From Procambarus clarkii (lineage: Eukaryota > Arthropoda > Malacostraca > Decapoda > Cambaridae), in NCBI RefSeq assembly GCF_040958095.1, contig NC_091156.1:17645751-17709750 (forward strand): a stretch of DNA of 64,000 nucleotides. Direction: 5' to 3'. Within the stretch, counting starts at the first letter, position 1. Each line of letters begins with the position of its first letter. Below the pieces are notes generated by a model. It ran no database searches. It was given only the letters and a program-made list of their open reading frames with translations, and was not told where the DNA came from. The position numbers and the translations under genes were made by a program. Positions 18,279-59,938 of the stretch are shown here, in pieces.

Positions 18279-21200
18279 GTAAATGACATGTCAGTTATCT
18301 ATGATGAGCGAGACTGGCCAGAACAATATTTGGAGTGGAAGGCGAGGTTCTCGTGTTTGGAGGCTGAGGTTCTCGTGTTTGGAGGCTGAGGTTCTCGTGT
18401 TTGGAGGCTGAGGTTCTCGTGTTTGGAGGCTGAGGTTCTCGTGTTTGGAGGCTGAGGTTCTCGTGTTTGGAGGCTGAGGTTCTCGTGTTTGGAGGCTGAG
18501 GTTCTCGTGTTTGGAGGCTGAGGTTCTCGTGTTTGGAGGCTGAGGTTCTCGTGTTTGGAGGCTGAGGTTCTCGTGTTTGGAGGCTGAGGTTCTCGTGTTT
18601 GGAGGCTGAGGTTCTCGTGTTTGGAGGCTGAGGTTCTCGTGTTTGGAGGCTGAGGTTCTCGTGTTTGGAGGCTGAGGTTCTCAAGGTTGGAGGCTGAGGT
18701 TCTCAAGGTTGGAGGCTGAGGTTCTCAAGGTTGGTCTGGAGGGATTGGGGCTTGTGAGGAGTGGAGACATCTTTGGTGATGCTTGTGTGAGTGGGGTCTA
18801 CTGAACGTTTTACCCATCTACGTCATCGCTACTCTAAACACTCCTATCTAACCTAATGAAAAATAATAGATACCATTTTATATATGATACACAGTATAAT
18901 ATATGAAGCCATAGAATTATTAAGGTCAAACACACTATATTTACAAGCTAAGATCACTCAGATGTGCTGTTTGGTATAGCAGGTACATGGTGGACTTGTG
19001 TAAGCTAGCCGGGGCAGGCCTATAGCCTGCCCCGGAGTCCTGTGTGGGGTTTAGTCCCCCCATACCTTGAGGTGCTTCCAGGGCTTAGCGTTCCCGCGGC
19101 CCGGTCGTCGACCAGGCCTCCATACAGTTACAGTAGTTGTGTTAGTCCCCCACACTGCCCCGGGCAGTGTGGGGGACTAACCCATCTCTGAGCAAGTGCA
19201 GTGCTTTATGCGAATTCCACGGTGGAATCATCCGAGCGATGTAATCCTTGGGTAACGTAGAGATGGTTCAGTTGGGTTCGTTAATTGTGTACTCCATACC
19301 TAACCTGTGGGTAGTGGTGCATTCCAGATACACCTTTCTACCGCCTAGGGATTTCCAACATAGTTGGAAACTGGCCAAGACATGGGGCACTTTTATTTGG
19401 ATACTGAAATGTGCAACATTTAATAGTATCAAGCTGCTTCATTGCACTTTCAAGCAGTATTTTCTAAAAAGATCCCCAAAGGCAACCCGATTATGTCAAG
19501 TGACATTATTCACCTTGCACAGCATGTGTATAAAAAAAGAAATTTAGGTTATGTTTAGAGTAGCAATTCTCTGTTCGAGAATTGCTACAGACAGAGAATT
19601 TAAACAGAGAATAGAGTTCTCTGGAGTCTTTTAGGAGCCCTGATTGTTCAACCTGACCTCTTACAGAACACTACATTGCTTTTTATGCTATTGATCCCAC
19701 TAAAAATGGGGCAGTGCTTTAGGGAAATTAAAATCTTCATAGTACTGTAATAGTTCTGTAATTTAAATTCTGGTAACCAAAATCTTGGGTAATCCGAATA
19801 ATTTTGAATGTAATTTTTTTTTTTACTGAAAAACTATAATAAAAATTTAGGTTACTAAGAGTTTTACCGAACTAACACTCAAATAAATTAGATTTTTTTT
19901 TTTTTTTTTACTTTCCAGGTAAAAATTTGGTTAACTCAAATGTCCATCTACCTCAAATGGCAGTGGGCCCCATATGCAGTAATATGGGTTATCAGGTGTA
20001 GACATTATTGATGCTTCATGGGTCTAATGATTTTTGCCCCAGTTAGTTACATGGGTTGCCTAGGCTCTGATGCTTCTGGTTAGGCAAAACTGGTTAAAAC
20101 TGATTAGGATAGCTGGGCGGGGGGACTAGGGCTCCCCCAGAAGGGAGCCGAGCGGACAGCACACTGGACTTGTGATCCTGTGGTCCTGGGTTCGATCCCA
20201 GGTGCCGGCGAGAAACAATGGGCAAAGTTTCTTTCACCCTATGCCCCTGTTACCGAGCAGTAAAATAGGTACCTGGGTGTTAGTCACCTGTCACGGGCTG
20301 CTTCCTGGGGGTGGAGGCCTGGTCGAGGACCGGGCCGCGGGGACACTTAAGCCCCGAAATCATCTCAAGATAACCCCTTCTCCCTCTTGAGGAGGGGGGT
20401 GCTGCGCAGACAGCGGCGTGTGATATCATGCTCATATGCTCGTTTCTTTTTTGGGAGTTCTATCCACTTGTTCGGCTTTTGGTAGCAATTTTCACCAGAA
20501 TAGGGGTTTGTTTTGGGACGCTTGCCTTTCTGGGTGCCTGACCCGGTCGATGGCAGACATAGAATGCTTCCAACCACACGGGGGTTTCTATAGGCCATTG
20601 CTCCCCATGCCTCTCTGAGGAGGCTAGGTTCTGGCTCGTGGTCCCTGGTAGGCCCACAGAACTCCATACACATGAATGATACCAAAGTCTGACATTAGCA
20701 TATCAGCCTGGATAAGCTTCGGGGAGCCTCCGGGTCTTGCCCAGAAAATGGCATTTCATTACATTCAACGCTGGTTTTTGGGATAAAACTAATTATTAAT
20801 TTTTTTATTATATGCTATTGTGATAGCTGAGAGTCATAGACATGATTTCAGTTGACATTTGTGTTTGTTAATTTTTGACCATTTTGGAAAATTTTTGACA
20901 CGTACTTTAATAAAGTATTTTTTCTCCCTTCCTATTTATGCTACGATGCTGAGACTTAGATCAGATGAAACCCTTTATATACAACTAGTCAAAAAAGTTT
21001 GATTGAAATCGAACTAGTTTTCATTTATTCCATATTTTTTTAAATTTGGGAACCCATGCCCCCTTAATGTTGTTTTTCTCTCGGAATAGCATATGATCTT
21101 CATTTTCATCAAATTAGAATATAGGTTTTCAGTATAGTTTACTGTAAAAAAAAAAATCGTCAATAAGGCATTTGAAATATGCGGCAAATTTAGACCAAAA

Positions 21201-24397: not shown

Positions 24398-27300
24398 TTT
24401 TATTTAGGTAAGGTACATACAATAAATTTTTACAAAGATTGGTTGACTTATAGGTAGAGCTAGTACATACAATGCCTAAAGCCACTATTACGCAAAGCGT
24501 TTCGGGCATGATAAACTTAAATGACAAGCTTAATACTAATTGAGCATAATGAGTAGATGAAAACAAGAAATCAAAACATAGATGAAAAAGCAGCACAAAT
24601 ACAAATATGTCGACAAACAGCGCTCTTTAAAGAAAAACAGACATTGGTTGAAAATAGAAGGGTAAGGTAGGTTACAGGGAATTTATTAGGTATAGCTTCG
24701 TTTTTAACTTAAACTGGTTGAGAGAGGTACAGTCTTTAACATGGTCGGGAAGGTCATTCCACATTCTGGGCCCCTTGATTTGTAGAGCATTTCTAGTTTG
24801 ATTAAGTCGTACTCTAGGAATATCAAAACTGTATTTATTTCTGGTGTGGTGCTCATGGGTTCTGTTACAACCTTCTATGAAGCTTTTGAGATCAGGATTG
24901 GCATTATAGTTTAGCGTTTTATATATGTATAATACACATGAGAGAATGTGCAGAGACTTAATGTCTAACATATTCAGAGATTTGAGTAGGGGTACCGAGT
25001 GATGTTATAATGGAAGGGGACTTCCCTTCCAAACAGTAATACCTCTCCTCCTCCCCCCTCCTCACTGTCTTCCATATGCCAACAGGAGTCATCAGTAAAG
25101 GTATGTAATAACTTGTATGTACTTTTGTAGTGAAGATTTGGATGAATTGGGTAAAAAATTTACTTTGAAGTGAAGTTTTTGGGAGTCGGGAACGGATTAA
25201 TTCATTCCCATTATTTCTTATGGGGAAATTTTCTTCGGTTTACGAATTTTCAGGTTACGAACTCTCCAGGAACGGATTAAATTTGTAAACTGAGATGCCC
25301 CTGTACACTTGATGGCTAGGGAAGTGACATTATGAATGTCACGTTCACCCCCGTGACAGCTGTAAGTTTACCCTCTTGCCACAAGCTTTCTCCTCCCAGC
25401 TGGCTGGAGTCTCTTGCAATGGCTACGCCATTCACAATGGTGGGTGCTCTGGGTCCCACTTTCAATGGCGGGAATGCTTAACTCATCCTATCTAATCGTC
25501 CACTGGACACCCAATGGCTATCATGTCATCACCAATCTTGTTAGCAATGTGGGCTTTCAATTGATACCAAACATGCTGAACTTAAATCCAGTCATAAGGA
25601 AAATAGGATTAGTGAAATGACTTTGTGCACTTGTGCACCCAAAGGCAGATTTCTCATCAGCCGTGGGAAACCTAAGAAACCATTCTCTCACACTATACAA
25701 CTCGACTGACCTTTTGTTTACTTAGTAAGAAAAGAGTAATGAACAATAATTTTTTTTATTTTTCAGTGTACTGTACTGTACTGTAGTTACAAATGGGTTA
25801 TTCACAGAATTCTTTTCTCTCGTATTTTTCCGTATTTAACTTGATTAGGTTTTATTTTGCAAAGACAATAAAACTACAAATGGGACTCCCTATCTTACCT
25901 GTTGTGGTCAGCACTATAGAGTCACAGCCAATAGGTCTGGTTCAATTCCCATGGCAAGACAGAATCATTTTGGCAAATTTTTCTTTCACCTTATGTTTTT
26001 TTTTTCCAGCTTGACCTATGTACCAGGAGTCTGGCAACTGTTGTAGGTTGCATCCTGGGGAAAGTCAGTAGTTTCTGTTCCCATTGTAATAGGAACAAAA
26101 TACATTTTATTTTTTAAAGCTATACTTTTGAAACTGAAGTAGCATAATAAGAACAACGTAGGAATTTTATAAGCTGTATTCAAGTAACAGATCCCCATTG
26201 TCTTGTACAGCACGTATATAAAATAGTACGGCACCCAATTATTTAAATCTGATGTACTGTACTGCATTTACAATCTATTAAAATTGGCAGGATACTACAG
26301 TAGTAATAATTTCAAGAGTAAATTTTTTCATGAACTTTACCACTGTATATACAGGTATCTTAAGATTTTGTTTTAAGAAGTTGCGCAGTGACAGCGCATA
26401 TTGACAGCATCATTATTTCTTGTCTACAGTTGCCGTAGAAGAACCAGAAAGGAAAATACATAAAAGGATTGGTCCAGTATCTATGATGGAAGGAACTGTA
26501 GTGGACTGCACAAACATGGAGGATACCAACACGTCATCAGAGGAGGTTGTTGGAGAGAAAAAGTCCCAGAAAGATTCAAGAAAACGCAAGAAGCACCTAA
26601 TCCACCAAATTACAGCACAAATGGAATTTTACTTTAGCTCTGCTAACATTACTAAAGATCGCTTTATGGCAAGTCTAATTAAAGATGGCCCATACGTTAA
26701 TCTAGACACATTTTTCAAGTTCAATCGAATTCGTTCCCTAACAACTGATATAAATTTGCTAAGAAAGGCTGTCAGTAAATCATCATTGTTGGAACTCTCT
26801 GAAGATGGGCTTAAAGTAAAAAGAAAATTTGAAGTTGAAGTAAAGGATAATGAAATGGAATGTACCATATATATCGAGAACATTCCAGCTCATAGTGATC
26901 ATAGTTGGATTCGAGAAGTGCTAGCTCAATATGGAACTATAGATTACATATCCCTTCCACGTTATCGTCGCTCGGGCAAACCCAAAGGCTTTGCGTTTGT
27001 TGAGTTTAAAACTCCTCAAATGGCCAACTCTGCATTAGAAGCATTTGGGGCTTTAGAGTGTAGAATTCCAGTAACAATCGATCCTTCCGAATTGCTGAGT
27101 ATCAAATCGTATGAGGGTAATGTGGAAGAGGAGCAGTTGAACACAAATGAACAGGGGACACCAAACAAATTCATTTGCTCTTTAGATCTAAAGCAAAATG
27201 CACATAAAATTAGTGATGATAAAGATACAGCCTTTAAAATGAAGACAGAAGTAGAAGAGAGGAAAATTGAAGTTGATGATAGAATGGGGGAAGATGTTAA

Positions 27301-29429
27301 TAGAAAGAGAAAGGAAGTGGAGGACAAATTTGAAGAAAATGACTCTGAACCTAATATTCATTCTGCCAAAAAAACAAAGTTAGATGATGCCATTAATAAA
27401 TCTGCTTCAGTTACTTGTACTGAAAGTGGTGAAGTAATGGAAGAGGGGTTGTCTTTAGGTAGCAAAAAGAAGAAAAAGAAACGTAAACGTAATAAGAAAG
27501 AAAAGGAAGAAATAGTGGAGAGTATTTATTTAAGGGTAATGTCAAAGGAGGATTGGAAGGGGCTGAGAAATCAGTATCTAAATATGCAACGAGAGAATAT
27601 GAAATCTTTAAAGAGGCAACTGCAAGAGAGATCAAATATGCAGTGTGATTATTCAGAATATTGTAATCCAAATTTCATTAAAATACCAGAGAAATGGGAT
27701 CGAAGAGAGAATACAGCCAGCAGTGTATCTAATGAGAATCAGAATTCAAAGCCACAGTTTATTCCAAATGCAATAATAAAAATAAGCTTTGAAGAACCAC
27801 CACAAGACCCAAAAAAACTGAGAGAGACTATACGTGAAGGGGGCAGTGGTGGCGTGGCGTATGTGGATGTTAGTGCTACAGAAAGAGATGTTTTTGTTAG
27901 GTTTTTGTCTGAGGATGCAGCTTCAGCATACAAAAAGTCTGGGTGTTGGAGTCGTATGGAAGTTTTATCTGGGACAGAGGAGGAAGAGTACTGGAATCGC
28001 ATTATTAGTTGTTGGTCTCAATTAAGAGGGCGGAAAAACAAACAAACTGGGAAAGGTACACTTGGCTATTCTAATCAAGTACGGGGCAGAGAAAAGCTAC
28101 TCCAAAAAGCCTTCAGAGAGGCACAGAATACCAAATTGAATTCACATATTGTTTTTGAAGATTAATTGAAGTACTATAGTACAGTACTTCAATTAACTTA
28201 GCACTGTACCAAAATTACATTTGGATCTTGTTTAAATGTGATCATGGTATTGGTTAATTAAAGATTTAAATTAGATTTAAATTTTAGCTACTAAACTTAG
28301 TCATATTTCCATAAAATGATTACTTAATGTAGAAGTAATGTACAGATTCTCACTGCAGTATAATAAAGGTACAGTACTAAACACATGCCTTTTTATTTAA
28401 TGCTGTTTTGTTTAAAAAATTTGGATATACTGTATGGTACAGTACTGTACTGTAATTTTTTTATATATAGTGGAACCTCGATTAACAAATTTAATCCGTT
28501 CCGGCACTGAGCTTGTCATGTGAAATGCTCGTCTTTCAAAACAAATTTCTCCATTTAAAATATTGGAAATAAAAATAATCCATTCCACCACCGAAAAACA
28601 TCAATATGATTTTTTATTTTTTAAATAATGGAGCAGCCTACCTGACATACACTGAATGAACCTTTGACATTTTTCTTTTTTCAACCTTGCTCACTTATTT
28701 TTATTTTTTATTTTTTTATGGCAAAAGGTTTGTTCAGTGTTTGTCAGGTAGGCTGCTCCATTATGACAATCTTTCTTTGTTTCAAATGTGTTCAATTTGT
28801 TTTGAATTTTTCATCCATTTATTAATAATGGAGCAGCGTACGTAACACACACTGAACGAACCTTTATGACATTTGTTCTTTTTTTAATTTTTTTTTAAGT
28901 TTTTGTTGTTTATTCTACAAAAAAATACAATGCTTTGCAACATCACAGCAGTCACCCCTTTACATCCCAGCATCATTAGCATCTTTAAGTAAAAAAAATT
29001 ATTTGCATCGTCAGAGTGCACGAGAAGCAGCGGGAACACACCATGTGGTTTTCTCGTTAATCAAACTTGCCAATCGAGACAAATTGTCGGCGATCGGCGC
29101 GATCGTTATTCAAAATGCTCATAAATTGAGGCGCTCGTCACTCGAGGTTCCACTGTATATACTGTACTGTATTTGTTAATAACAATACTCTAAGTATTTT
29201 ATCTGAACACCTATTATTCGGATTTGCCAGCTGTTTTGATTTAGTCATGAATGTCCTATTAAAAGAAATACAGCTATTACTGTATCTGCATGTTTGAGCT
29301 CTAGATTCAGCCACTTGCTGACATTCTTGTCTATATGGCGTTACTTAAATGTGGAATAAATTGCCAGATAAATGTTGAGTGACTTGACATCCTACTACTG
29401 TACTGGGTCTAGAGCCCAACCTTTATTTA

Positions 29430-41289: not shown

Positions 41290-41386
41290 TGCTTATACAG
41301 GATTTAAAGCACAGAATTAAGTTTATTTTGTGTTTATTTCCATATTCTTACACCCTTGTTTTTAAGTGTCAAATTTTCACAGGACA

Positions 41387-42595
41387 ATGTTGCTCAGAGT
41401 GAGAGATTTTTTATACAGACACCGGAGGAAGTTTGTAATTGGAGGTGCAATAATAGGTGGGATTGCTCTCCTTAGTCGTTATGCAGAGCACAAACTTATT
41501 GCTTGGCATGATCAACACACACACACTTTGATGGAAAAACAAAAAAAACGGCAACATTATGAAAATACACATAGAACAGCAAATGCAACAGTTATGAGCT
41601 TGTCTGTTAGTATGAAAGAGATTATATCAAGGGAACTTGATGCAGATGCTCTCCTTCAAGCAGTAAGGGAACAACCACAACACAAACACAGTATTTGGCA
41701 GCAACTCAAGGTTGTGGGATTCAGCCGTGCGGTTTCCACTGTTTATGTTGCAAGTTTGGTAGCCACAGCGGTGCACATACAACTCTTGCTACTTGGAGGA
41801 TATACTTTTGGGGACCTCATACACTCTGGTCATGCAAACATACCAGTATCCCAGGCATTGCAGCAGAAATATCTTGCTGTTCTTCATTACCTTGTTGAAG
41901 AGGGCATTCCTAAACTGTTGCAGCATATAACTCGAGCTGTTACTCATATTGTTGCTGGATTGCCTCTTACTCGACCTCTTACTTTATGTCAGTTAGAAGC
42001 AATTTTTCAGGAAATTAAACTTGACCTAGCTGGAGAAAATGTATCATATGAACTTCATGATGGGAAAAGGCCTAAGCTAGAGCCATGGAGCAGATATGTT
42101 CTTCATACACCTGTACCACCTGAAGGGGACTCAGGAGATGATATGGCACTCTACAATATGCTAATTGAAACAAATGATATCCTTGCCAGTGAGGATTTTA
42201 GTACTGTAATGGACACACTAGTTCAACACGGATTTAATCATTTGTTAGATAGAATGGCTGAATTTTACCCACTCCCTAAAATTCCACACGAGTTCAGTGG
42301 TAGTAATGAAAATTGGGTTGACAGTGTTAGAAGAGATATACCCCCTAGTGTTTCAGATAATGTGGTTGAGAGTTCTTCACTAGCCCAAGGGACTCTATCT
42401 TACAACTCCAGTTTCTCTCATAACAGCACTCTTCCTGTGGCCAAATTAGTACCACTTTTATCAGGAGTAGTGCATGCTGCTCTATCCCCTGCACCTGGCC
42501 AGCTCTTACAAAAGATTCTCACCGTTGACAAACTTGATTCATTGGGAGCAAATGTTTATGAAGCTTTTGCATTGCCTCTTAAGCAACAGATGTGA
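41387..42595 (+). CDS. PEX3: PEX3, peroxisomal biogenesis factor 3
   Basis: Predicted 402 residues from ATG 41387 (human PEX3 is 373). The N-terminus MLLRVRDFLYRHRRKFVIGG AIIGGIALLSRY is the basic stretch plus first membrane segment that targets PEX3 to the peroxisome or ER. Family matches continue: HYENTHRTANATVMSLSVSM, IWQQLKVVGFSRAVSTVYVA, QLLLLGGY, a long middle, LDRMAEFYPLP and the C-terminal LGANVYEAFALP. In the family, PEX3 anchors PEX19 so membrane proteins can enter peroxisomes. The frame stays open upstream (from 41366), but a TTTTCACAG acceptor-like sequence ends at 41382, and Met at 41387 matches the family start. The reading frame has no intron, whereas PEX3 is usually multi-exonic in animals. 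It begins 97 nt after the Tim8 stop. Confidence 0.95.
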   Translation: MLLRVRDFLYRHRRKFVIGGAIIGGIALLSRYAEHKLIAWHDQHTHTLMEKQKKRQHYENTHRTANATVMSLSVSMKEIISRELDADALLQAVREQPQHKHSIWQQLKVVGFSRAVSTVYVASLVATAVHIQLLLLGGYTFGDLIHSGHANIPVSQALQQKYLAVLHYLVEEGIPKLLQHITRAVTHIVAGLPLTRPLTLCQLEAIFQEIKLDLAGENVSYELHDGKRPKLEPWSRYVLHTPVPPEGDSGDDMALYNMLIETNDILASEDFSTVMDTLVQHGFNHLLDRMAEFYPLPKIPHEFSGSNENWVDSVRRDIPPSVSDNVVESSSLAQGTLSYNSSFSHNSTLPVAKLVPLLSGVVHAALSPAPGQLLQKILTVDKLDSLGANVYEAFALPLKQQM

Positions 42596-50824: not shown

Positions 50825-50830
50825 TTTATT
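50825..50830 (-). promoter_or_regulatory. Poly(A) signal AATAAA of the crustin-like gene
   Basis: TTTATT on plus, i.e. AATAAA on minus, about 38 nt past the TAA stop. Confidence 0.6.
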
Positions 50831-50867: not shown

Positions 50868-53837
50868 TTACAAATAATTTATATGTGAAGTGTGGTGGCT
50901 TGTTGCCGTGGACAAGCGCTCGGCTTCAGTTGCAATCTCCTGGGCTGTTCCCAGGACCTCCATAATGGCCGTCATCACTACTGCGGCTATAGATGTTAGT
51001 CCTTCACTATCCTCCATTTCTCGGAACTTTGAGCCCATCCTTTCGATAATTAAGGTAATTTGTCTGAGGAATTCTTCCACGAGATGGACGAGTGGTCCTC
51101 CGTAATCGGCAACGTTACTCATTTTACTTGCAACATTTAACGAATCATAGTTCAAATTTTCAACTTTGTCCGCCATTTTCAAGATCTGTAAGCCAATATC
51201 CCTAAGTTGTAGAGGTAGTGGGAGCCTCCCGGGCTGGCCACCAGGCGCCACAGTGTCCTCGCCCTGCTGCTGCCAGTTGTTATAACTGGCTTTTCTTTTA
51301 GGTTTCTCGTCGTCCCTTTTGACAGTGTTATCAAACATTTTCATTAACGTAGTCAATAACTGGAAGTTTCCAGCATTGTTCAAATCCTCGTCACGCATAA
51401 ACTTTGTTCGCATTTGTTCCACTGGAAGGACGTATCGTCTCCTACGATATTTTGGAGGAAGTAGTGTTGGTGCCTCTTTGTCATCCGATTGTCCTCGTAT
51501 ATTTTGCAAGTTATCCATACTCGAATTATTTTCATTAACCTTCAGTTGGGACCCATTATTGCTCTCATTGTGATTAGGTAAAAGTGCTTGTAGAAACACA
51601 CTTCTCTGCATTTGGGAACTTTTACTAGAACCATTACTAGTTACATCCTCTTCAGCCCCATCGTGCGTGTTAACATCTTTAGCAACCATGTCAGCCGTCT
51701 GTTGCCGCTTCCGATAATTAGCTTGTACAAATTCGTAGCCATACTGTGAATGGATTGTTTGTTGCTGGGTTTCGCTCTCGTATTTCGAACGAGTTGAAAA
51801 CTGTTCTTTCCGCTCTACTGCAATTACATACGGCATTGTTGCTTCTTTGGGTCGTTGATGCATGCAATCTCTGTCATTACTCGCTTGCTCACTTGTTAGT
51901 TGTACCAGATCTTCGTCTTCAGCCTCCAGTGACTGGTCACTTGCACGTGGAGGATTATTTCCGAGTGGTACCACTGACAACAAGCGTCTCCCATGGTATA
52001 CCATTGATGGTGGACCTGTATTATACTCAGACTCGTGCACATGTTTGTCTTCAGAACCTCCCATCAGTTCCTTAGACTTTATGGTGTGCACATCGTAGGT
52101 ATTGTCACCGTCAGAGGATAAACTCTGACCTATATCCTCGGTATATTTATTCACAATCTCTTCACTCTGTGAATCTTCTTTCCATACTTGGTGAAATCCT
52201 GAATATGGATCCAAATTTTTATCATAATGCTCGTATCTTTCAACTTCTAACTTTTTTTGTTCTATAATCTCTTCCTCTCCAGAATAATCAGCACATTCAC
52301 CCACCTCTGGGTGATAGCCGTCTAGCCCACAACTCCCATCCTCGTCTTTTACAAAGTGTTTAAAATTATTTTTATCATATAGTTCTCTCATGTTAAAAGC
52401 AATTTCAGATTTCTCCAAGACTCCATCCATATTACTAGAGCTCTGCCCCTTATTCTCTACCTCTGGATCATTGTATAAATCGCCACTCTTTACATCTTCA
52501 CGAGTCTCTAGATTCCTTACATTTTGGGTATCTTCCCGCCGCGTACGGTAGACTGGTGCTGCTGCAGCTCTCCTCGTCTCTAGCGAGTCACTTTCCTCTT
52601 CCAATTTCATGGAGCCTTTCAACTCTAGCTTTTTCATGTTTTTTGCCATATTATCTAAGTGTTCTTCACTTGGCTGGTGTTCATCTAGTAAGACAACCCT
52701 GAGAGGAATTCCATTCTCGTCTCCAATAACATGACCCGTTTTATCCACTACAAACAATCCATTTACAGTTTGCTTAACTGACACTCCAGTAGAATTCTGC
52801 AGTTTAAACGTAATCTTTCCAACTGCCAGTTTCACGTCATTGCCGTTGTAATCCGTTAAGTTTACCACTCTGCCCATCTGGTCCACCAAAGTGATTGTGT
52901 TACCTTTTCCATCTACGATAACCATGTCCTCCAACACTTTTTGACTATTTCGAGATCTAAAGTTTATGTTTTTAACTTTAATTATTCCATTTTTGTCCGT
53001 AATCAGGTTGCCATCTTTGTCAATTATGGCATTTGCAGTTACTTTATCTGAAGCTACAATGGAGATGGAGGCATTCTTGCCGGTGCCAAGTGCCTCTCCA
53101 GGTACCGAGGAGAAGCTCATCACAAACATCACACCATCATGGTTCAATACTCTCAAGGCGTCAGTCCTCGTAATATTTTTGTTTTGTCCTTGCAACTTAT
53201 CACCTATTGAACTGCTACGAGCAGAAACTTGCTCAGAACCATTCCATGTTTTGTTATAAAGTTTCTCGGCATGCATAGTCAAGTTTGGAATTACCGAATG
53301 CTTTACTGTACCCACGAACGACCATTCTGTGGCAGATACAATGCCAGCCACCACTTTAATCCCTTCATCGTTAAAAACTAGAGTGGGACCGCCACCAGCC
53401 TGCACCAGTGTTAAAGTATTGTCAACGGAATCTACCACCAAATCACCATTTTCGTCCTCTATAATGTAAATTTGATCCTTTTCAGATAACTGCACATTTG
53501 TTTGAGTCTTGTGTAAAGTTGAGGAACTAGTTACATTAGCACCAGGAGCGAGCAAGTGTGGTGACGGGGGCGAGGGGGCCACAGTGACCACGTCTCCTGC
53601 CCTCACCGCCACGGGGTCGCCTCTACTGTTCACCACAACACTGACTGGCTCCTCGTCACGCGTCAGTATCACTGGTATCGCTGCACCTGACCCACTATTT
53701 CTAGCGCCATTTGGATTATACCGAACAGTATTCCTACGGTGTCTGGGTGCAACAGCAGTTTTGCATACCCTAGCCATGAGGCAGGCATCATCACAGCACT
53801 TATCAGACACGGCGCAGTCAGAGTCCGTGCTGCACAG
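50868..53837 (-). CDS. Crustin-like gene, exon 4: second half of WAP plus unknown C-terminal region
   Basis: 989 codons open, acceptor ATTTTCAG ending at 53838. It begins LCSTDSDCAVSDKCCDDACL (WAP cysteines 3-7). Then come beta-rich segments built around D-x-D/N-G turns (IIEDENGDLVVDS, IIDKDGNLITDKNGIIKV, VVDKTGHVIGDENGIPL), with about a dozen N-x-S/T glycosylation sites. Next is a long acidic disordered region with dibasic sites (RTRRED; YHGRRLL; KYRRRRYVL near residue 975). It closes with amphipathic helices (LRDIGLQILKMADKVENLNY; VEEFLRQITLIIERMGSKFR; AVVMTAIMEVLGTAQEIATE) before TAA at 50868-50870. The composition fits an extracellular, possibly proteolytically processed protein. The function of this part is unknown. 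Confidence 0.85.
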   Translation of the reverse strand: MCSTDSDCAVSDKCCDDACLMARVCKTAVAPRHRRNTVRYNPNGARNSGSGAAIPVILTRDEEPVSVVVNSRGDPVAVRAGDVVTVAPSPPSPHLLAPGANVTSSSTLHKTQTNVQLSEKDQIYIIEDENGDLVVDSVDNTLTLVQAGGGPTLVFNDEGIKVVAGIVSATEWSFVGTVKHSVIPNLTMHAEKLYNKTWNGSEQVSARSSSIGDKLQGQNKNITRTDALRVLNHDGVMFVMSFSSVPGEALGTGKNASISIVASDKVTANAIIDKDGNLITDKNGIIKVKNINFRSRNSQKVLEDMVIVDGKGNTITLVDQMGRVVNLTDYNGNDVKLAVGKITFKLQNSTGVSVKQTVNGLFVVDKTGHVIGDENGIPLRVVLLDEHQPSEEHLDNMAKNMKKLELKGSMKLEEESDSLETRRAAAAPVYRTRREDTQNVRNLETREDVKSGDLYNDPEVENKGQSSSNMDGVLEKSEIAFNMRELYDKNNFKHFVKDEDGSCGLDGYHPEVGECADYSGEEEIIEQKKLEVERYEHYDKNLDPYSGFHQVWKEDSQSEEIVNKYTEDIGQSLSSDGDNTYDVHTIKSKELMGGSEDKHVHESEYNTGPPSMVYHGRRLLSVVPLGNNPPRASDQSLEAEDEDLVQLTSEQASNDRDCMHQRPKEATMPYVIAVERKEQFSTRSKYESETQQQTIHSQYGYEFVQANYRKRQQTADMVAKDVNTHDGAEEDVTSNGSSKSSQMQRSVFLQALLPNHNESNNGSQLKVNENNSSMDNLQNIRGQSDDKEAPTLLPPKYRRRRYVLPVEQMRTKFMRDEDLNNAGNFQLLTTLMKMFDNTVKRDDEKPKRKASYNNWQQQGEDTVAPGGQPGRLPLPLQLRDIGLQILKMADKVENLNYDSLNVASKMSNVADYGGPLVHLVEEFLRQITLIIERMGSKFREMEDSEGLTSIAAVVMTAIMEVLGTAQEIATEAERLSTATSHHTSHINYL

Positions 53838-56800
53838 CTGAAAATATGGGTAATTTTAGAAACATTGTGAAATATTATGCTGCATAGTCTGTTACCGGAA
53901 CAAATCCTAAAACCAAGTTGGACATTCGACACACCTTAGTATTATCGTAACCTGAAGAATTTGTAGTCCTTATAAATGTAGTGCATTTTAAACGGCCAAA
54001 TTTCACACCCCTACTCTCCCCCGCCATCCCAAGCTACATCCAACGTTGTTACTGCGACCCGTAGAGGGGGTAGCAATCGACCATGATAAAGAAAGAAGAT
54101 TCGCCTCCTGAACAATCAAAACATTCATCAAGAAAGAACTTCTAAAAGCCAACAACACGATCAACACTAATCCCATCGACATCCGCCAGGAGGGAGAGGG
54201 AATCGTGCTCTTCTACTCCCAAGAAGCTGTAGCTGACCACTTGCTCTCTACCCCAATCCAGAAACTCCTATTTAGCCAGAACATCGAACTCTTCTTGCCG
54301 CGTCTGATGGATGGAGTCTGGGGGCAGCGTTGTGATCGGGCAGGACCAGGATGAGCCTCTGAGCGGGTACGACAAGCGTCAGAGCTTCAGTGGTTTCATC
54401 GCTGACCTCTACCTCACTCAGTCTCTCCTCACTCTTGACCAGATGAATGATTATGTTCACTGTAGAACAGACGCGTTGTTGACTCATCAACATTTGATGG
54501 ATTTTGTAAATATTCGAGAAGATTTTATGTTTGGGGTGGAAGCAAGCGTCGTGAGCAGGGTGAACCCTTGCCGCCCCAACAGCAACAAGTTCTTCTCCAT
54601 CTTCCCGGAAGCACGAAGCATGAAAGAATGTAGCCATTTCTGCTCTATACTTAACGGCAACGTTCCTATCCCACTGAATGATGAAGAAAATATAGCTTTA
54701 TTCAACGAAGAGTCTGATTTTTGCAGACAAATGCACGGCGTTTGATAAAAGCAACAGTATGTGGATTGGTATACAATGGGCCCCTAATGAATCTTTGTGG
54801 AAAAACCAAATTACTAATAGAGAAGCTGTTTACAAAAATTTTAAAATTGAAATTTTACCCTCTTTATTACGCACTAAAGCACTATGGCTGAAAGAACTAT
54901 TTGCCAGTTGTATCACTGCCTGGATACCTGACTGGAAACTAATAGAAGTCAGAAACTGTATCCAAGTTGGAAACCTCAACTCTCAGGTATTCGAAATTAC
55001 GAGCTTGACCAACGCCAACGGCGAACGCACCACTGCCGTTAGTGAATCACTATCACTAACGGCAGCAAATCTCGCCATCACAGCCGGGTTCAAATGTTTT
55101 GGCATCTTTACCCCACCTGTACAAGTGACAAACGGTACTACACCCTAGGACAGTGCTTAAAATGCTACAAATACACACACTTCAAGTGCCAGAAGATGCA
55201 TGGTGTAGCATCTGCGCCGAGGATCACTACTACTCTGCCAAGGCAGACTTTCAACGCTGCCTCGTCTGCAACGTCACAGCTGCCCGTGCAGACAGGAAGC
55301 CATCAAGCAATTGACGGACTCTAGTAAAACTTGAGCTGCCACGAACGATTCCACCAACACTGCACGCAGCAGCCAGTCAGAAATTTTCCCCGCCTTACCG
55401 AGCAGCAGCCTCTCCTGCAACCATCCCCAGCCGGCTCACTGGGGGACCACAGGCCAACCAACATCCCAGCCTCAACCATCACCAACGGGCTCTACCATCT
55501 CTACAACCGATGGTATCATCCCCGCCCTCATGTGCCTTGTTGAATGGGTCGCCGGGTCCGACAACCACTTGTTCGGGAGCATACGCAACACCCTATATGC
55601 AGCGAACGGCTTAACCGGGTTAATCGTTCCTGACGCAGTGCTGGCTGCCCAGATTAAGACACCTACAACGGCGCGCTCCCGCACCATCCAGCGATCTTGT
55701 AGTGCACTAGGTAGTGTCCTCCATGCCAGCGGCCAGTTCACCACCTACCATCAACACCCTATCCGATGGGCTAGACTAACGGTCAGCCCTCGTCGGCTAA
55801 ACCACCAATGCTCCCGCTGCAATGGCAACACCCGCTCCGCAGCCATAGGCCCATACCTGCACCTTCAACGCACACAACGCAGAATTAACCTAATTGACTC
55901 TTTAGACGATGTCTCAGTAGAAGTATCATCATCTCCCCACCATCTTAAGTCATGTCCTAGGGAGGACACTGACCCCGTCCATCCACAAATCTACATTATC
56001 AGCTATTGGTACTGGCTCCTAATTGCCTCTACTTACGGGTTATTCATGCTCATGCCACCTCTTTAGTGGCTTAATCTGTATCAATGAATCTACAGCCAAA
56101 TATATTTCTAGTTGTTTTTATTAAACAAATAGAGTCTTTAGGTACAGGAAAATCAGAAGCAATTTAAAATCACTTATTTCCCTAATGTTCAATTCTCACA
56201 AGCTGGCAACAATCTAAGCCTTCAAGCCTAATATAGACAATTGTATATTTAACGTCATACGCGAGAAAATGAACTAGGGATAACTTTAAAATAAACTAGT
56301 ATAAAATGTACTTACTGCCAGATGGGCCGATGTTTGTACTCTAGGACAATAATTACGTGCAGGAGGACACTGCCCGCGCTCTTGGCTCCACGTATCTAGT
56401 CATGAACAAGAATATGCATCATAACATTTAGTAATGCCTAGTATGGGGGGTAGAAATAGCCTAAGCTACTCTATTCCTTTGAGATGTATTTCTTGCTTAT
56501 CTCAATAAACATACTTGAACTTGAAATGCCTAATATCTGGTATGACTTCATTTGTGTTCAGAATACTTGAGGTATTGGAGATATGACTAGTTACCTTCCG
56601 TGGTGATTGGAGTTACGGGGGCCGTGGTAGTGGCAACCGTAGTGGCGGAGAAGGCTCCAACTATTGTGCTGGCGACGGGTGGCCCCAAGCCGACGGGTGG
56701 CCCCAAGCCGAGTGGATGCAGGTTGAACAGCAGCGGTGAAGTAGTGACTGTTCCCACAGCATCTACACTACTTTCCACGTCAATAAATATTGGAGTGTAA

Positions 56801-59800
56801 GTATTTACAGGGAAATTAGGGACGTGGGAGGCATCAGCAGAGGTAGTAGGCGAGAAGTCACTTAGGTGCACACTGTCTAAAATAACTTGGGCAGCTCGGC
56901 AGCAATAATGTTGAGTATTACCATACTGTTGTGACTGGCAGTAGTGAAGACACGAGTACCTGCAGGAAAAACACTAAGACATTGGCGCTCTGCTCAACTT
57001 CAGAGCAAAGCTAACTAGAGAGCTTGTAAATCATTACATATAAATTCTAGTAAAGTTAACATTGTATTATGCATCTAATAGAGAGAAAGCCATAATCTTA
57101 AAACATGCAAACCTGTATTTCATTAATATTAACTTTACATATTAAAATACAACTGGTAATGTGCAATTAAGTTTCTTGCAAATCACGACGCATTAATGTA
57201 CAATACAGCAAATTATCGTAAAACTGATTTGGTTACGTGGCGACCGTCACTCGAGTTAAAATCAAAAGAAAGCAAAGTCCGGAAGATAGCACAATATTAC
57301 ACAATATCTAGACATGCAGGATGCCCCATACATTAGCAGTATGACAAGACTAGTGTCAAAGGTATTAGAATCAAGGATTTTATCAATCCGCATACGACTA
57401 AGGAATATTGGGAAAGCAACGTACAATCTATCCAGAAAACTCAAATTCAGGAAGTGCAGGGCTACTTCAGGAGATGCCCAGATCATTGTGGCGCCAGTAC
57501 ATATCTTACCCAGACGCTATCAAGTTTTTTTTTTTGCGCCGAGACGAGACCACAGGTATTGGTAAAACTTTATAGTACGCAATTTATTTGTAATAGCAAA
57601 CCTCTCCGAATGGTTGCAGGTAGGGGTTATGAATAAATTGATAAAGGAATTAGTTTCTGGGAGATGGGACACGCACGAATGACAACGATAGCAACTGCGA
57701 GGTCATTAGAGGTAACACCAGTGTGGAGAGGAATCTAACAACATTTTACGAATATTTGTTAAAAATGGTTAAGTTACTGTTGGATTTCTATCAGTACAGG
57801 AAATAAAGGGTAAAAGAACTCCAAGCCATGAGAGTCCAGAGAGAGAGAGAGACTAACGTTGGCATAAATCCTAGTAGTATTCTAAACTGCATAAAAGTTG
57901 CTCCATGAAAATACTCTTCAAAGGGGAAGCGGCATAAAGGCATCAGGAGACTAATCCGTGCGTAAATAGCAGTAATTGGGAACACATTGCAGATGTACAC
58001 GGCCTGCAAGCAGACAACACGTACAGTAAAATATTTATAAACAAACAGGACTTTACAAGCAGCCGTCAAAGTGGCATTACAACTTACGGGCTATTCATGC
58101 CCATACCACCTTTTGGGTGGCTTAATCTTCATCAATCATCGCATTACAAGCGTGAATAGGAGCTCTGTACGGTCTGTGCAAGTTTTCGAAGGCAACACTC
58201 AACATAGATCAACCCGTCCTCACACTAAGTCCATTCCATACAGCGGTCGGCCCCAAAGACATCAATTTTAACATGCTGTTCATTCAAAATAGGTATTCTC
58301 AAATATAAATTAACATGGTTATATATATTAGTATGCTGTGCATATTTAGGCATTGGTTAGGTTAGATGTTTAGGTTCTGTTTGCGATTATTTGTAGTACG
58401 TGGGGTGGAGGATTTACATTGTTGTGGTTCGAACAAAATTAAGTCGCCAACTAAGCACTTATTAGAAGTGTTTGAACATCAGCTGTGAGTCTTGTTTGGA
58501 GGACGGGCCCATCCTCATAAACAAAGGCCAAAAGTGATTGTGCACCCGCTAAACCCCCTGTTTATGAATGAAAAACTGTTTACACACGACTCGACCGATT
58601 TCTTTCGAACACTTCCGGAACAAGTGCTTCACTGAAGAATTTTGTTCGAACCACAAAGCTATAAATGCTTCACCCACGTACTACAAATACAAATAATCGC
58701 CAACAGAACCTAAACACCCAACCTAACCTATCCTATGCCTATATATACACAATATGCTATTATAATATTAATTTATACTTTAGAAATTTCCCGTTTTGAA
58801 TGAACAGCATGTTAAAATTTATGAATGCGTCTGTGGGGTTGACCGCTGAATGTAATGGACTTTAGTCAAGGACGGGTTGTATAAATGCTTCACCCACGTA
58901 ATACAAATAAACGCCAACAGAACCTAAGCACCTAACCTATGCCTATATATGCACAATAAGCTAGTATAATTTATATTTGAGAAAATTCCAGTTTTGAATG
59001 AACAGCATGTAAAAGTTTATGAATGCGTCTGTGGGGTCGACCGTTGGATGTAATGGACTTTAGTCAAGGACGGATTGTTCACCGACTAATTGTTCGAACC
59101 ACAACGTTGTAAATATTTTCTTGTCTCAAACGTATTTGAATTTGAGCCCACGTACTACAAATAATCGCCAACTTAATGCCTAAATATGCTTATATAATAC
59201 TATTTTCATTTGAAAAAATTCCTGTTTTGAAAGATCAGCATGCTAAAATTTACAAATGCGTCTTTGGGGTAGACTGTTGGACGGAATGGATTTGGTCTGA
59301 GGACGGGTTGTGTGTAAATCTTTTTTTTCTTAAACGGGGTTTGGCGGGTGCATGGAATCGCTTTTGGCCTTTGTTTACAAGGACGGGTTGCGTAGGTGGT
59401 TTTAGACAAGCTCTGGAATGGGAAAGAAACATCCCTTCCCCCCCCCCCCCCGAGCCGACCTTCCCCGAATGCAACCTGTAACTACTACATCGCCAAACTC
59501 CCTGGTACCTATTTACCGTCAGGTAAACATACAACAGGAAACTTGGCCCAAACGTTTCTGTCCTGCCGCAGGAATTTAACCACGAACGTTTGTTGTGATC
59601 CGATTGCGCCACAGGTGTTAAGAATTGCGCCAGAGGGCATGTCACCAGTTACAAATCACTTTTGTAGTAATGGCTGTTACAAACGGCTTTTTAAAGTGGC
59701 TAACCTATATTATGAGCACTCATCATCCGAGACCTGCATGATGATTTATATTCGTTATATACCGAGCATCCAATACCTAGTGACACGTATAATGTTTAAT

Positions 59801-59938
59801 ATTATCCGTGTAGTGTACATGCAGCGGGCCACAGTCCCAAACCACAACAGCGTGCAGTGTCACCCACTTGTACGGCGAGAGGTCGGCCGCTGCAGCAGCC
59901 CACACCGCCACCGCCCACACAAACACCATCGCCGCCAT
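50868..59938 (-). CDS. Giant crustin-like secreted protein with WAP domain (gene span; exons 59868-59938, 56595-56959, 56316-56395, 50868-53837)
   Basis: The four exons total 3,486 nt and agree in phase at every junction, giving a predicted 1,161 residues. Residues 1-18 are a signal peptide (MAAMVFVWAVAVWAAAAA). Residues 26-44, SCLHYCQSQQYGNTQHYCC, resemble the crustin motif SCRYWCKTPEGQAYCC. Residues 45-145 are a Ser/Thr/Pro linker with a doubled GLGPPV. Residues 155-197 carry all eight WAP cysteines (155, 162, 174, 180, 186, 187, 191, 197; ..CPPARNYCPR.., DSDCAVSDKCCDDACLMARV C). Crustins are secreted crustacean antimicrobial or protease-inhibitor proteins of about 80-200 residues that normally end just after the WAP domain. 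Here about 960 further residues follow in one exon. I recognise no family in the extension. The exon model is inference from splice signals; additional small exons in intron 1 cannot be excluded. Confidence 0.8.
54075..56100 (+). mobile_element. LINE ORF1 with 3' end, interrupted by a foreign segment
   Basis: 54120-54305 encodes FIKKELLKANNTINTNPIDI then EGIVLFYSQEAVADHLLSTP. 54880-55320 continues with RTKALWLKELFASCITAWIP and, in shifting frames, GQCLKCYKYTHFKCQ (a zinc-knuckle start) and CAEDHYYSAKADFQ. 55510-55670 encodes ALMCLVEWVAGSDNHLFGSI RNTLYAANGL. This order (RNA-binding part, knuckles, conserved tail) is that of a decapod LINE ORF1. The copy runs straight into the 3' end seen at 14418-14600, with no reverse transcriptase. 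It is degenerate. Confidence 0.65.
54306..54880 (+). pseudogene. Intronless pentraxin + C-type-lectin-like segment (probable processed retrocopy)
   Basis: 54311 onward encodes MESGGSVVIGQDQDEPLSGY DKRQSFSGFIADLYL, a pentraxin/LamG end (family pattern GG..VIGQDQD..GG.FD..QSFSG.I). It continues with FSIFPEARSMKECSHFCSIL NGNVPIPLNDEENIALF and, after a frame change near 54740, TAFDKSNSMWIGIQWAPNES LWKNQITNREAVYKNF, a C-type-lectin-like fold (MWIG..W..NES.W). Two or more domains in under 600 bp with no intron, set inside a LINE ORF1, point to reverse transcription of a spliced mRNA. I recall crustacean channel-like genes combining pentraxin, lectin, LDLa and Cys-loop channel domains; that link is tentative. 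It is a fragment and not functional. Confidence 0.65.
56316..56395 (-). CDS. Crustin-like gene, exon 3: first half of WAP domain
   Basis: 80 nt, acceptor GACTAG ending at 56396 and donor GTAAGTA at 56315. With the G from exon 2 it encodes DTWSQERGQCPPARNYCPRV QTSAHLA, supplying WAP cysteines 1 and 2 in the crustin-like GxCPPxRxxCP pattern. Phase 1 in, phase 0 out, matching both neighbours. The exon is too short for open-frame listing and was found by extending the WAP domain upstream. Confidence 0.85.
56595..56959 (-). CDS. Crustin-like gene, exon 2: Cys motif and Ser/Thr/Pro linker
   Basis: 365 nt, acceptor CCTGCAG ending at 56960, donor GTAACT at 56594. It encodes YSCLHYCQSQQYGNTQHYCC RAAQVILDSVHLSDF and then a linker rich in T, P, S and V (TTVATTTAPVTPITTE). 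The CxxxC...CC spacing is that of the crustin Cys-rich region. Intron 2 is only 199 nt. Confidence 0.82.
58075..58140 (+). mobile_element. LINE 3'-tail fragment
   Basis: CTTACGGGCTATTCATGCCC with the CCACC..GGTGG hairpin and TTAATCTTCATC, as at 14418-14480 (minus) and 56030-56090 (plus). Confidence 0.6.
58264..59392. mobile_element. Cluster of CAACCCGTCCT MITEs in opposite orientations
   Basis: A plus-oriented part (58264-58515) and a minus-oriented copy (58501-58876) form a large palindrome. Two more partial minus copies follow (58877-59075 and 59076-59310), then the end of a plus copy (59330-59392). All share ACATGCTGTTCATTCAAAA, GTGGTTCGAACAAAATT and the end AGGACGGGTTG. A simple complete copy is 40275-40668. 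Confidence 0.75.
59440..59451. repeat. poly-C tract
   Basis: C homopolymer of about 12 nt between the MITE cluster and the SINE. Confidence 0.7.
59495..59640 (-). mobile_element. SINE fragment (minus)
   Basis: On minus: CCTGTGGCGCAATCGGATCA (tRNA-like start), then GGTTAAATTCCTGCGGCAGG and TGACGGTAAATAGGTACCAG. It resembles 38560-38715. Confidence 0.5.
59868..59938 (-). CDS. Crustin-like gene, exon 1: signal peptide
   Basis: On minus, ATG at 59938 begins MAAMVFVWAVAVWAAAAADL SPY. This is a classic signal peptide with likely cleavage after the Ala run. A TTGGTACAG acceptor ends just before ATG, implying an untranslated upstream exon. A donor (AA|GTGGGT) leaves two bases that combine with the first G of exon 2 to give Lys, so the join reads ..SPYK-YSCLHYC. 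The alternative donor six bases on (TGG|GTGACA) would break the phase. Linkage to exon 2 is inferred. Confidence 0.7.

Follow-up and report, generated by a model that had tools for sequence, protein, structure and literature searches.

The gene considered here lies on the minus strand of a 64,000-nucleotide stretch of Procambarus clarkii DNA (contig NC_091156.1, positions 17,645,751 to 17,709,750; 'the window', within which all positions below are numbered). It joins a crustin-type head, i.e., a cysteine-rich motif followed by a WAP domain, to a very long tail, with the two encoded as one protein of 1,161 amino acids. Among the small defence peptides of crustaceans, crustins are a textbook case. 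By comparison of predicted proteins, this fusion is conserved and not confined to P. clarkii: at least its start is present in shrimps and in a second crayfish, with these relatives entered in databases as 'mesocentin-like', 'uncharacterized' or 'hypothetical'. Directly after the WAP there is a conserved R-x-R-R, which is the classical furin pattern, and we hold with roughly even confidence that the protein is a secreted proprotein, one from which a furin-type protease would release the crustin-like head. That site, along with repeats found in the tail, adds to a preliminary description of this DNA, which had recognised exons, head and tail.

Gene model

Four exons of 71, 365, 80 and 2,970 nt are separated by three introns, all of them GT-AG (donors GT, acceptors AG) at the exon borders listed below. 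Coding sequence totals 3,486 nt, that is, 1,162 codons including the stop. The preliminary description had put forward exactly this model, phases and codon count included, and it stands unchanged. Intron 2, in phase 1, comes before the WAP, and intron 3, in phase 0, interrupts the WAP one residue before its cysteine 3. Features of the gene are as follows.

59868-59938, minus strand: exon 1, start codon and signal-peptide-like stretch MAAMVFVWAVAVWAAAAADLSPYK (hydrophobicity maximum; by eye)
56595-56959, minus strand: exon 2, cysteine-rich motif and most (about 100 residues) of a Ser/Thr/Pro-rich linker
56899-56952, minus strand: crustin-type cysteine-rich region, C27-x3-C31-x11-C43C44
56316-56395, minus strand: exon 3, WAP front (GQCPPARNYCPR..); intron phases 1 in, 0 out
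50868-53837, minus strand: exon 4, WAP back half, R-x-R-R site, repeats, acidic region, C-terminal part and stop
53763-53837, minus strand: WAP back half, C3 to C8, with C7-x5-C8 spacing
53733-53744, minus strand: furin-type site R204-H-R-R207, directly after the WAP; predicted cleavage
53577-53687, minus strand: possible partial repeat unit, residues 223-259 (retrained model only; -0.6 bits at iteration 0, below the best shuffle)
53343-53441, minus strand: partial repeat unit, residues 305-337 (11.7 bits with the penaeid-only model, above 1000 shuffles)
52983-53105, minus strand: possible partial repeat unit, residues 417-457 (retrained model only; 5.7 bits at iteration 0, below the best shuffle)
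52677-52922, minus strand: full repeat unit, residues 478-559 (47.2 bits with the penaeid-only model; best shuffle 7.6)
52536-52547, minus strand: second R-x-R-R site, RTRR606, after the last repeat, in a region unalignable with penaeids
51435-52673, minus strand: acidic region, residues 561-973, net charge -28, probably disordered
51435-51446, minus strand: third R-x-R-R site, RRRR973, before the C-terminal part
50871-51434, minus strand: C-terminal 188 residues, helix-rich only in a very-low-confidence model
50825-50830, minus strand: AATAAA polyadenylation-type hexamer, about 40 bases past the stop codon, as read from the sequence

Exon 4 sits within a 995-codon open frame, and the longest frame among 200 order-1 Markov copies of that exon is 148 codons (three frames, one strand); the open frame is far beyond chance expectation. 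A search of the species' own 4.03-Gb genome turned up a single copy of exon 4 (seven candidates scored). As bases preceding the first ATG resemble a splice acceptor (..TTGGTACAG|ATGG), an untranslated 5' exon may exist upstream of exon 1. The four-exon gene is confirmed, with its splicing predicted from the sequence.

Relatives

The protein search which had been proposed does find relatives. Use of the full-length protein as query (7,998 candidates scored, these being the ones with most shared words, of limited lengths, from 5.77 billion proteins) yielded a Penaeus chinensis protein labelled 'mesocentin-like' (P0001, 1,160 aa, E 3e-56) together with an unnamed one of 1,070 aa (P0002). An alignment of heads as query added Cherax quadricarinatus LOC128691337 (P0004, 434 aa), P. 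vannamei P0003 and P0005, which apparently are one gene, P. indicus P0006, and a double-WAP protein from a barnacle (P0007). Candidates for this second query were limited by length, leaving short type I crustins mostly ineligible. A profile search returned, among the 7,998 candidates, only the two proteins already found. From those scored candidates no crab, lobster or caridean orthologue was returned, and other decapod orthologues may be missed.

P0001 resembles the window protein, as do P0002 to P0006 over the parts that each covers, in having a signal-like start, the motif YSC-x-HYC..YCCR and a crustin-type WAP ending CKTAV, followed by R-x-R-R, then VILT..PVSVVV, and then repeats. How far each extends differs, with the long tail found only in P0001 and P0002; P0003, P0004 and P0005 reach the tail start only, and P0006 ends inside the WAP. 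The joining of WAP to tail start is seen, that is, in four database proteins from three species (P0001, P0003, P0004 and P0005). They agree in this with exon 4, which encodes WAP cysteines 3 to 8 and runs on in frame, and so the earlier claim that the tail of about 960 residues belongs to the same protein holds.

The Cherax protein is approximately half identical to that of the window. Identities, going from head to tail, are 20/26 in the cysteine-rich part, 30/99 in the linker, 39/52 in the WAP, 6/26 over residues 202-227, 18/35 over 228-262, 42/60 over 286-345 and 17/51 over 346-400. The supposed domains, in other words, are conserved between these two proteins and the linkers are not. P0001 differs from the window protein in its interdomain, 28 versus 110 residues, and in its repeat matches, ten versus four. 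As the two tails are unalignable beyond window residue 560, the near-equal lengths of the two proteins are taken to be coincidence.

Database models echo the exon borders. The N-terminus of P0002 is the start of exon 4, P0006 diverges from the family sequence at the end of exon 3, and P0005 joins it just before the exon 3 motif. The latter two borders probably represent intron read-through in wrong gene models. By our own reading P0002 would be an exon-only call from a genomic contig, one which backs the exon 4 border rather than splicing.

With mesocentin, P0001 shares only an automatic database label. No mesocentin sequence was compared, and the name looks wrong and automatic; the word mesocentin led, as judged by titles, to no crustacean paper. 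In the literature searched, which included few subscription journals, neither the four locus names of the relatives nor mention of giant crustin-headed proteins was noticed.

The head as crustin-derived

Crustins have been defined, on penaeid examples, by at least 12 cysteines with two CC pairs in a cysteine-rich region plus one 4-DSC/WAP domain (PMC10363340). The window protein possesses this signature. Its cysteine-rich region extends from C27 to C44, or 18 residues, which is within the crustin range of 12-20. Its eight WAP cysteines span C155-C197, and the CC pairs stand at 43/44 and 186/187. The N-terminus is hydrophobic, with a signal peptide predicted from that hydrophobicity and by eye, and L20 and Y23, preceding YSC, are common to this protein and P0001. 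Pfam WAP is passed narrowly (21.5 bits, cut-off 20.8), as it also is by Cherax (22.0 bits). The crustin-type head of the preliminary description is borne out in each of these respects.

The spacing C7-x5-C8, shared with crustins of types I and II, distinguishes crustin-type WAPs from other WFDC domains. It is present as well in 12 of 13 other crustin-type loci of the same genome, L040 having x6, and C7-x3-C8 was read by eye in 8/8 fetched loci among the 13 Pfam-WAP matches of that genome. Sequence comparison of the window protein against the PDB gave nothing better than E 0.057, the snake WAP nawaprin coming in at E 8.5.

Those 13 loci are derived from a genome search with P0007, giving 23 matches at E <= 1, of which 15 loci were fetched, one being the window, and 8 matches went uncounted; L033, lacking a readable WAP back half, was left out of the tail count. 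Following cysteine 8 there are 4-25 residues in these 13 versus 964 in the window gene. The generalization that crustins are short and end just after the WAP stands for these loci, then, but not for type Ib crustins, which have more than 30 extra residues (PMC7401287). In nine of the 13 a single open frame covers the entire WAP, which is not so in the remaining four (L036, L039, L041, L043). Two short crustin genes with split WAPs, on contigs C59 and C54, display by eye the same intron phases around the WAP as the window gene, that is, 1 before and 0 inside. The acceptor residue in the C54 gene is that of the window gene (|FCATD versus |LCSTD), and in the C59 gene the acceptor falls two residues further upstream (|PRLCPHD). 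The window WAP, in being split by an intron, differs from L. vannamei type IIa and IIb genes, in which the mature peptide occupies one exon (PMC5793079). Head and gene layout are, on these comparisons, homologous to those of crustins.

In a tree of 20 chosen WAP domains, the crustin-type rows, giants included, separate from four WFDC rows with support of 96/70. Within the crustins the tree lacks resolution and long branches are flagged. WAP identity to the window protein is 77% for Cherax, 57% for P0001 and P0003, 56% for the short C24 crustin L035 and 53% for the barnacle protein. On these figures the WAP alone is no proof of a giant family; what proves it is the shared tail.

Other properties set this protein apart from crustins of types I and II. 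The interdomain between cysteine-rich region and WAP is 110 residues, Ser/Thr/Pro-rich, versus a range of 4-18 which derives from penaeid crustins. The 964 residues past C8 make for a protein of 126 kDa without its signal peptide, versus 179 +- 53 aa across 233 crustin sequences and 5.87-28.29 kDa in L. vannamei (PMC7401287, PMC10363340). Nor is the head cationic: residues 20-207 have a pI of 6.1 and net charge of -3, the WAP alone has a pI of 6.7, and the P0001 head has a pI of 6.6. Charge is a soft criterion, however, since L. vannamei crustins span pI 4.15-9.69 (PMC7401287). Crustins are classified mainly by the region before the WAP (PMC7401287). As cysteine signature and cysteine-rich length agree with crustins, and interdomain length, size together with WAP position, and charge do not, we file the protein as crustin-derived, not a crustin sensu stricto. 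The idea that it might represent a new crustin class is on the same grounds set aside.

Among candidates limited, again, by length, the head query brought up a single short relative, P0007 (E 5e-16), an Amphibalanus amphitrite WFDC5-like protein of 169 aa. Like the window protein it combines cysteine-rich motif and WAP, with WAP ends CKTAM/CKTAV; unlike the window protein, it has a second WAP where the tail would be. Crustins have been called specific to Malacostraca (PMC5437397), yet the cysteine-rich motif before the first WAP of this barnacle protein is crustin-like.

The tail

The repeats were described using a profile that had been trained on six units of P0001. Of seven strong units in that protein, six therefore are the training set itself, and the one independent unit, at residues 512-588, was recovered at 28.1 bits. 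Later iterations were retrained on matches that included the window protein, making them partly circular, and independent scores for the window are those of iteration 0, i.e., the penaeid-only model, as set against the best of 1000 shuffles (7.6 bits). Retrained profiles give ten repeat matches in P0001, with a period of about 88 residues, and four in the window protein, one full and up to three partial.

Searched against Pfam, the tail (window and P0001 proteins whole) gave sub-cut-off matches only, the best being DUF4367 on P0001 (E 0.0015, 19.4 versus 22.1 bits), and single repeat units reached at best E 0.03. NCBIfam gave no match to the tail, and the best PDB profile match was E 0.03. The repeat, as judged by these searches, is unknown to Pfam. 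For residues 561-1161, blastp and hhalign against the penaeid proteins revealed no detectable counterpart. Structure prediction, also proposed earlier, was run, though to little effect: two models have mean pLDDT of 27.8 and 28.1, too low to use, and provide no usable fold.

R-x-R-R sites and a possible proprotein

An R-x-[KR]-R follows the WAP in 6/6 sequences spanning that position (window and P0001 to P0005, with P0003 and P0005 apparently one gene). It reads RHRR in the window, RPRR in Cherax and RYRR in penaeids. Within residues 202-227 the three arginines of the R-x-R-R are among the six of 26 positions identical to Cherax. The window protein contains three R-x-R-R sites versus a shuffle mean of 0.25, with at least three seen in 5 of 2000 shuffles. 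P0001 contains six overlapping matches at four places, a result reached in 0 of 2000 shuffles. Window sites 207 and 606 flank the repeat part, and in P0001 three of the four places fall between domains or units. Features of a furin-processed proprotein, that is, a signal peptide, here predicted, and a conserved R-x-[KR]-R within a linker, both are present.

Because the arginines are kept amid an otherwise poorly conserved stretch, and because the sites exceed shuffled expectation, we favour a proprotein reading, albeit one for which confidence and doubt are about equally balanced. Under it, a protein of about 126 kDa would consist of a crustin-type head, cysteine-rich motif plus WAP, along with a long and nearly cysteine-free tail. 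A furin-type convertase of the secretory pathway would cut after R-x-R-R207 and so release a head the size of a crustin, about 20 kDa. The tail, i.e., its repeats, acidic and C-terminal parts, would then be a carrier or instead a separate matrix or granule protein. Secretion and cleavage, the role of the tail, and any antimicrobial or protease-inhibiting action are all presumptive. The logic of a precursor with an extension nevertheless has precedent, as mussel mytilins and myticins are made from precursors with a C-terminal extension (PMC11767717). More tentatively, with doubt exceeding belief, this would be a proprotein family conserved among decapods and arisen through capture of a giant repeat tail by an ancient crustin gene, with furin freeing the crustin from a matrix- or granule-forming carrier made of an undescribed repeat.

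Weighing the alternatives

A number of observations weigh against the proprotein reading or the family on which it is based. Arginine clusters can be coincidental, and of the P0001 places one falls within a repeat unit. Conservation with penaeids does not extend to the last 600 residues, leaving sites 606 and 973 without comparative support. Were the tail to anchor the WAP, then cleavage would be unnecessary. The head, in not being cationic, is unlike typical antimicrobial crustins. As to the family, Pfam WAP scores of P0001, P0003 and P0005 (16.9, 16.2 and 15.9 bits) are below the 20.8 cut-off, the four giants form two pairs rather than a single clade in the WAP tree, and by WAP identity the penaeid giants appear no closer to the window protein than does L035 or the barnacle protein. 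P0002, starting as it does at exon 4, gives no evidence of splicing.

Chief among the rivals is a matrix protein that stays uncleaved and has a structural function in cuticle, basement membrane, egg coat or clot; its WAP head would be an in-place inhibitor or binding module and its repeats a scaffold. The tail, long, acidic and repeat-bearing, is suited to this, and past the WAP it has three cysteines together with 13 N-x-S/T sequons. Also in keeping are the P. chinensis repeats, whose matches span residues 143-1038 of 1,160, and a head that is not cationic. Such a protein would provide no role, however, for an R-x-R-R kept after the WAP amid a poorly conserved stretch, and we consider it a real possibility but one falling appreciably short of even. 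Alternatively, a short crustin gene may have lost its stop codon and so come to read into unrelated sequence, as proposed for type Ib crustins with a hypothetical 39-residue example (PMC7401287). The last 600 residues do match nothing in the penaeid protein. The tail to about residue 560 nonetheless is common to P. chinensis, and its start to Cherax, from which it follows that the fusion is old, and a 995-codon open frame is not expected of non-coding DNA. We regard this explanation as improbable, with stop loss being instead something that could have first given rise to the fusion.

The preliminary description had itself raised the prospect of exon 4 belonging to a different transcript with its own start, in which case the exon chain would be an artefact merging two neighbouring genes. 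The chain is known here from DNA sequence alone, and the 2.5-kb intron 3 contains mobile-element-like open frames, both of which would fit with such a merger. Exon 4 itself, however, carries half of the WAP, cysteines 3-8; P0001, P0003, P0004 and P0005 connect WAP front, WAP back and tail start; and the WAP is split in the same way in two short crustin genes. Given that half WAP and those four proteins from three species, it is very unlikely that exon 4 forms a gene of its own, and to the artefact overall we grant hardly any probability.

Other observations

Within intron 3, positions 54003-56066 hold several mobile-element-like open frames on both strands. One of these, a plus-strand frame at 55046-55324, has a zinc-finger-like CLKCYKYTHFKCQKMHG; three others gave no match to Pfam. 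Introns 1 and 3 (about 58080-58120 and 56025-56070) contain two similar stretches, ..gattaagccacc..aggtgg..gcatgaata.cccgtaag.., probably a dispersed repeat. Elsewhere in the window are found two long single open frames on the plus strand. That at 26405-28165 has the Pfam domains La, RRM_1 and RRM_3, and we presume it, from domain order, to be LARP7-like. The other, at 41366-42595, matches Peroxin-3 (PF04882, E 1e-34) and is an intronless gene or retrocopy. A tandem array at 18340-18726 has a 22-bp unit, 17.6 copies and 98% matches. Scanning the window with Rfam, at its gathering threshold, and for tRNAs gave no matches.

Crustin genes of this genome occur in clusters, on C24 at about 19.76-19.78 Mb and on C44, C49, C54, C59 and C79 (loci L030-L050). 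The C44 cluster is Gly-rich and type II-like, that on C24 has unsplit WAPs mostly ending CKATV, and those on C54, C59 and C49 have split WAPs.

Matches to P0001 in the P. clarkii genome (45 at E <= 10, including two to the window gene itself) were considered as paralogues and rejected as low-complexity. The seven such loci which were read (L011-L014, L019, L020, L023) are arrays of short tandem units in which several frames are open; other P0001 matches on contigs C3 and C14 are taken to be the same. On C3 (25, 33, 39.8, 42.9, 51.6, 54 and 58 Mb) and C14 (25.9 Mb; L011-L014 and L016-L029 in all), open frames extend up to 3,224 codons and consist of short tandem units, e.g., TVVDGPGTPL. They probably are satellite arrays mimicking proteins, going by the seven loci read.

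Significance

A crustin head joined to some 1,000 residues of tail, in crayfish as well as penaeid shrimp, indicates that this head is usable in another way. The family supplies a repeat unknown to Pfam along with a conserved and testable cleavage site, and it calls into question the database name 'mesocentin-like'. If the captured-tail proprotein is indeed what this gene encodes, then a defence peptide and a structural protein would both be obtained from a single transcript.

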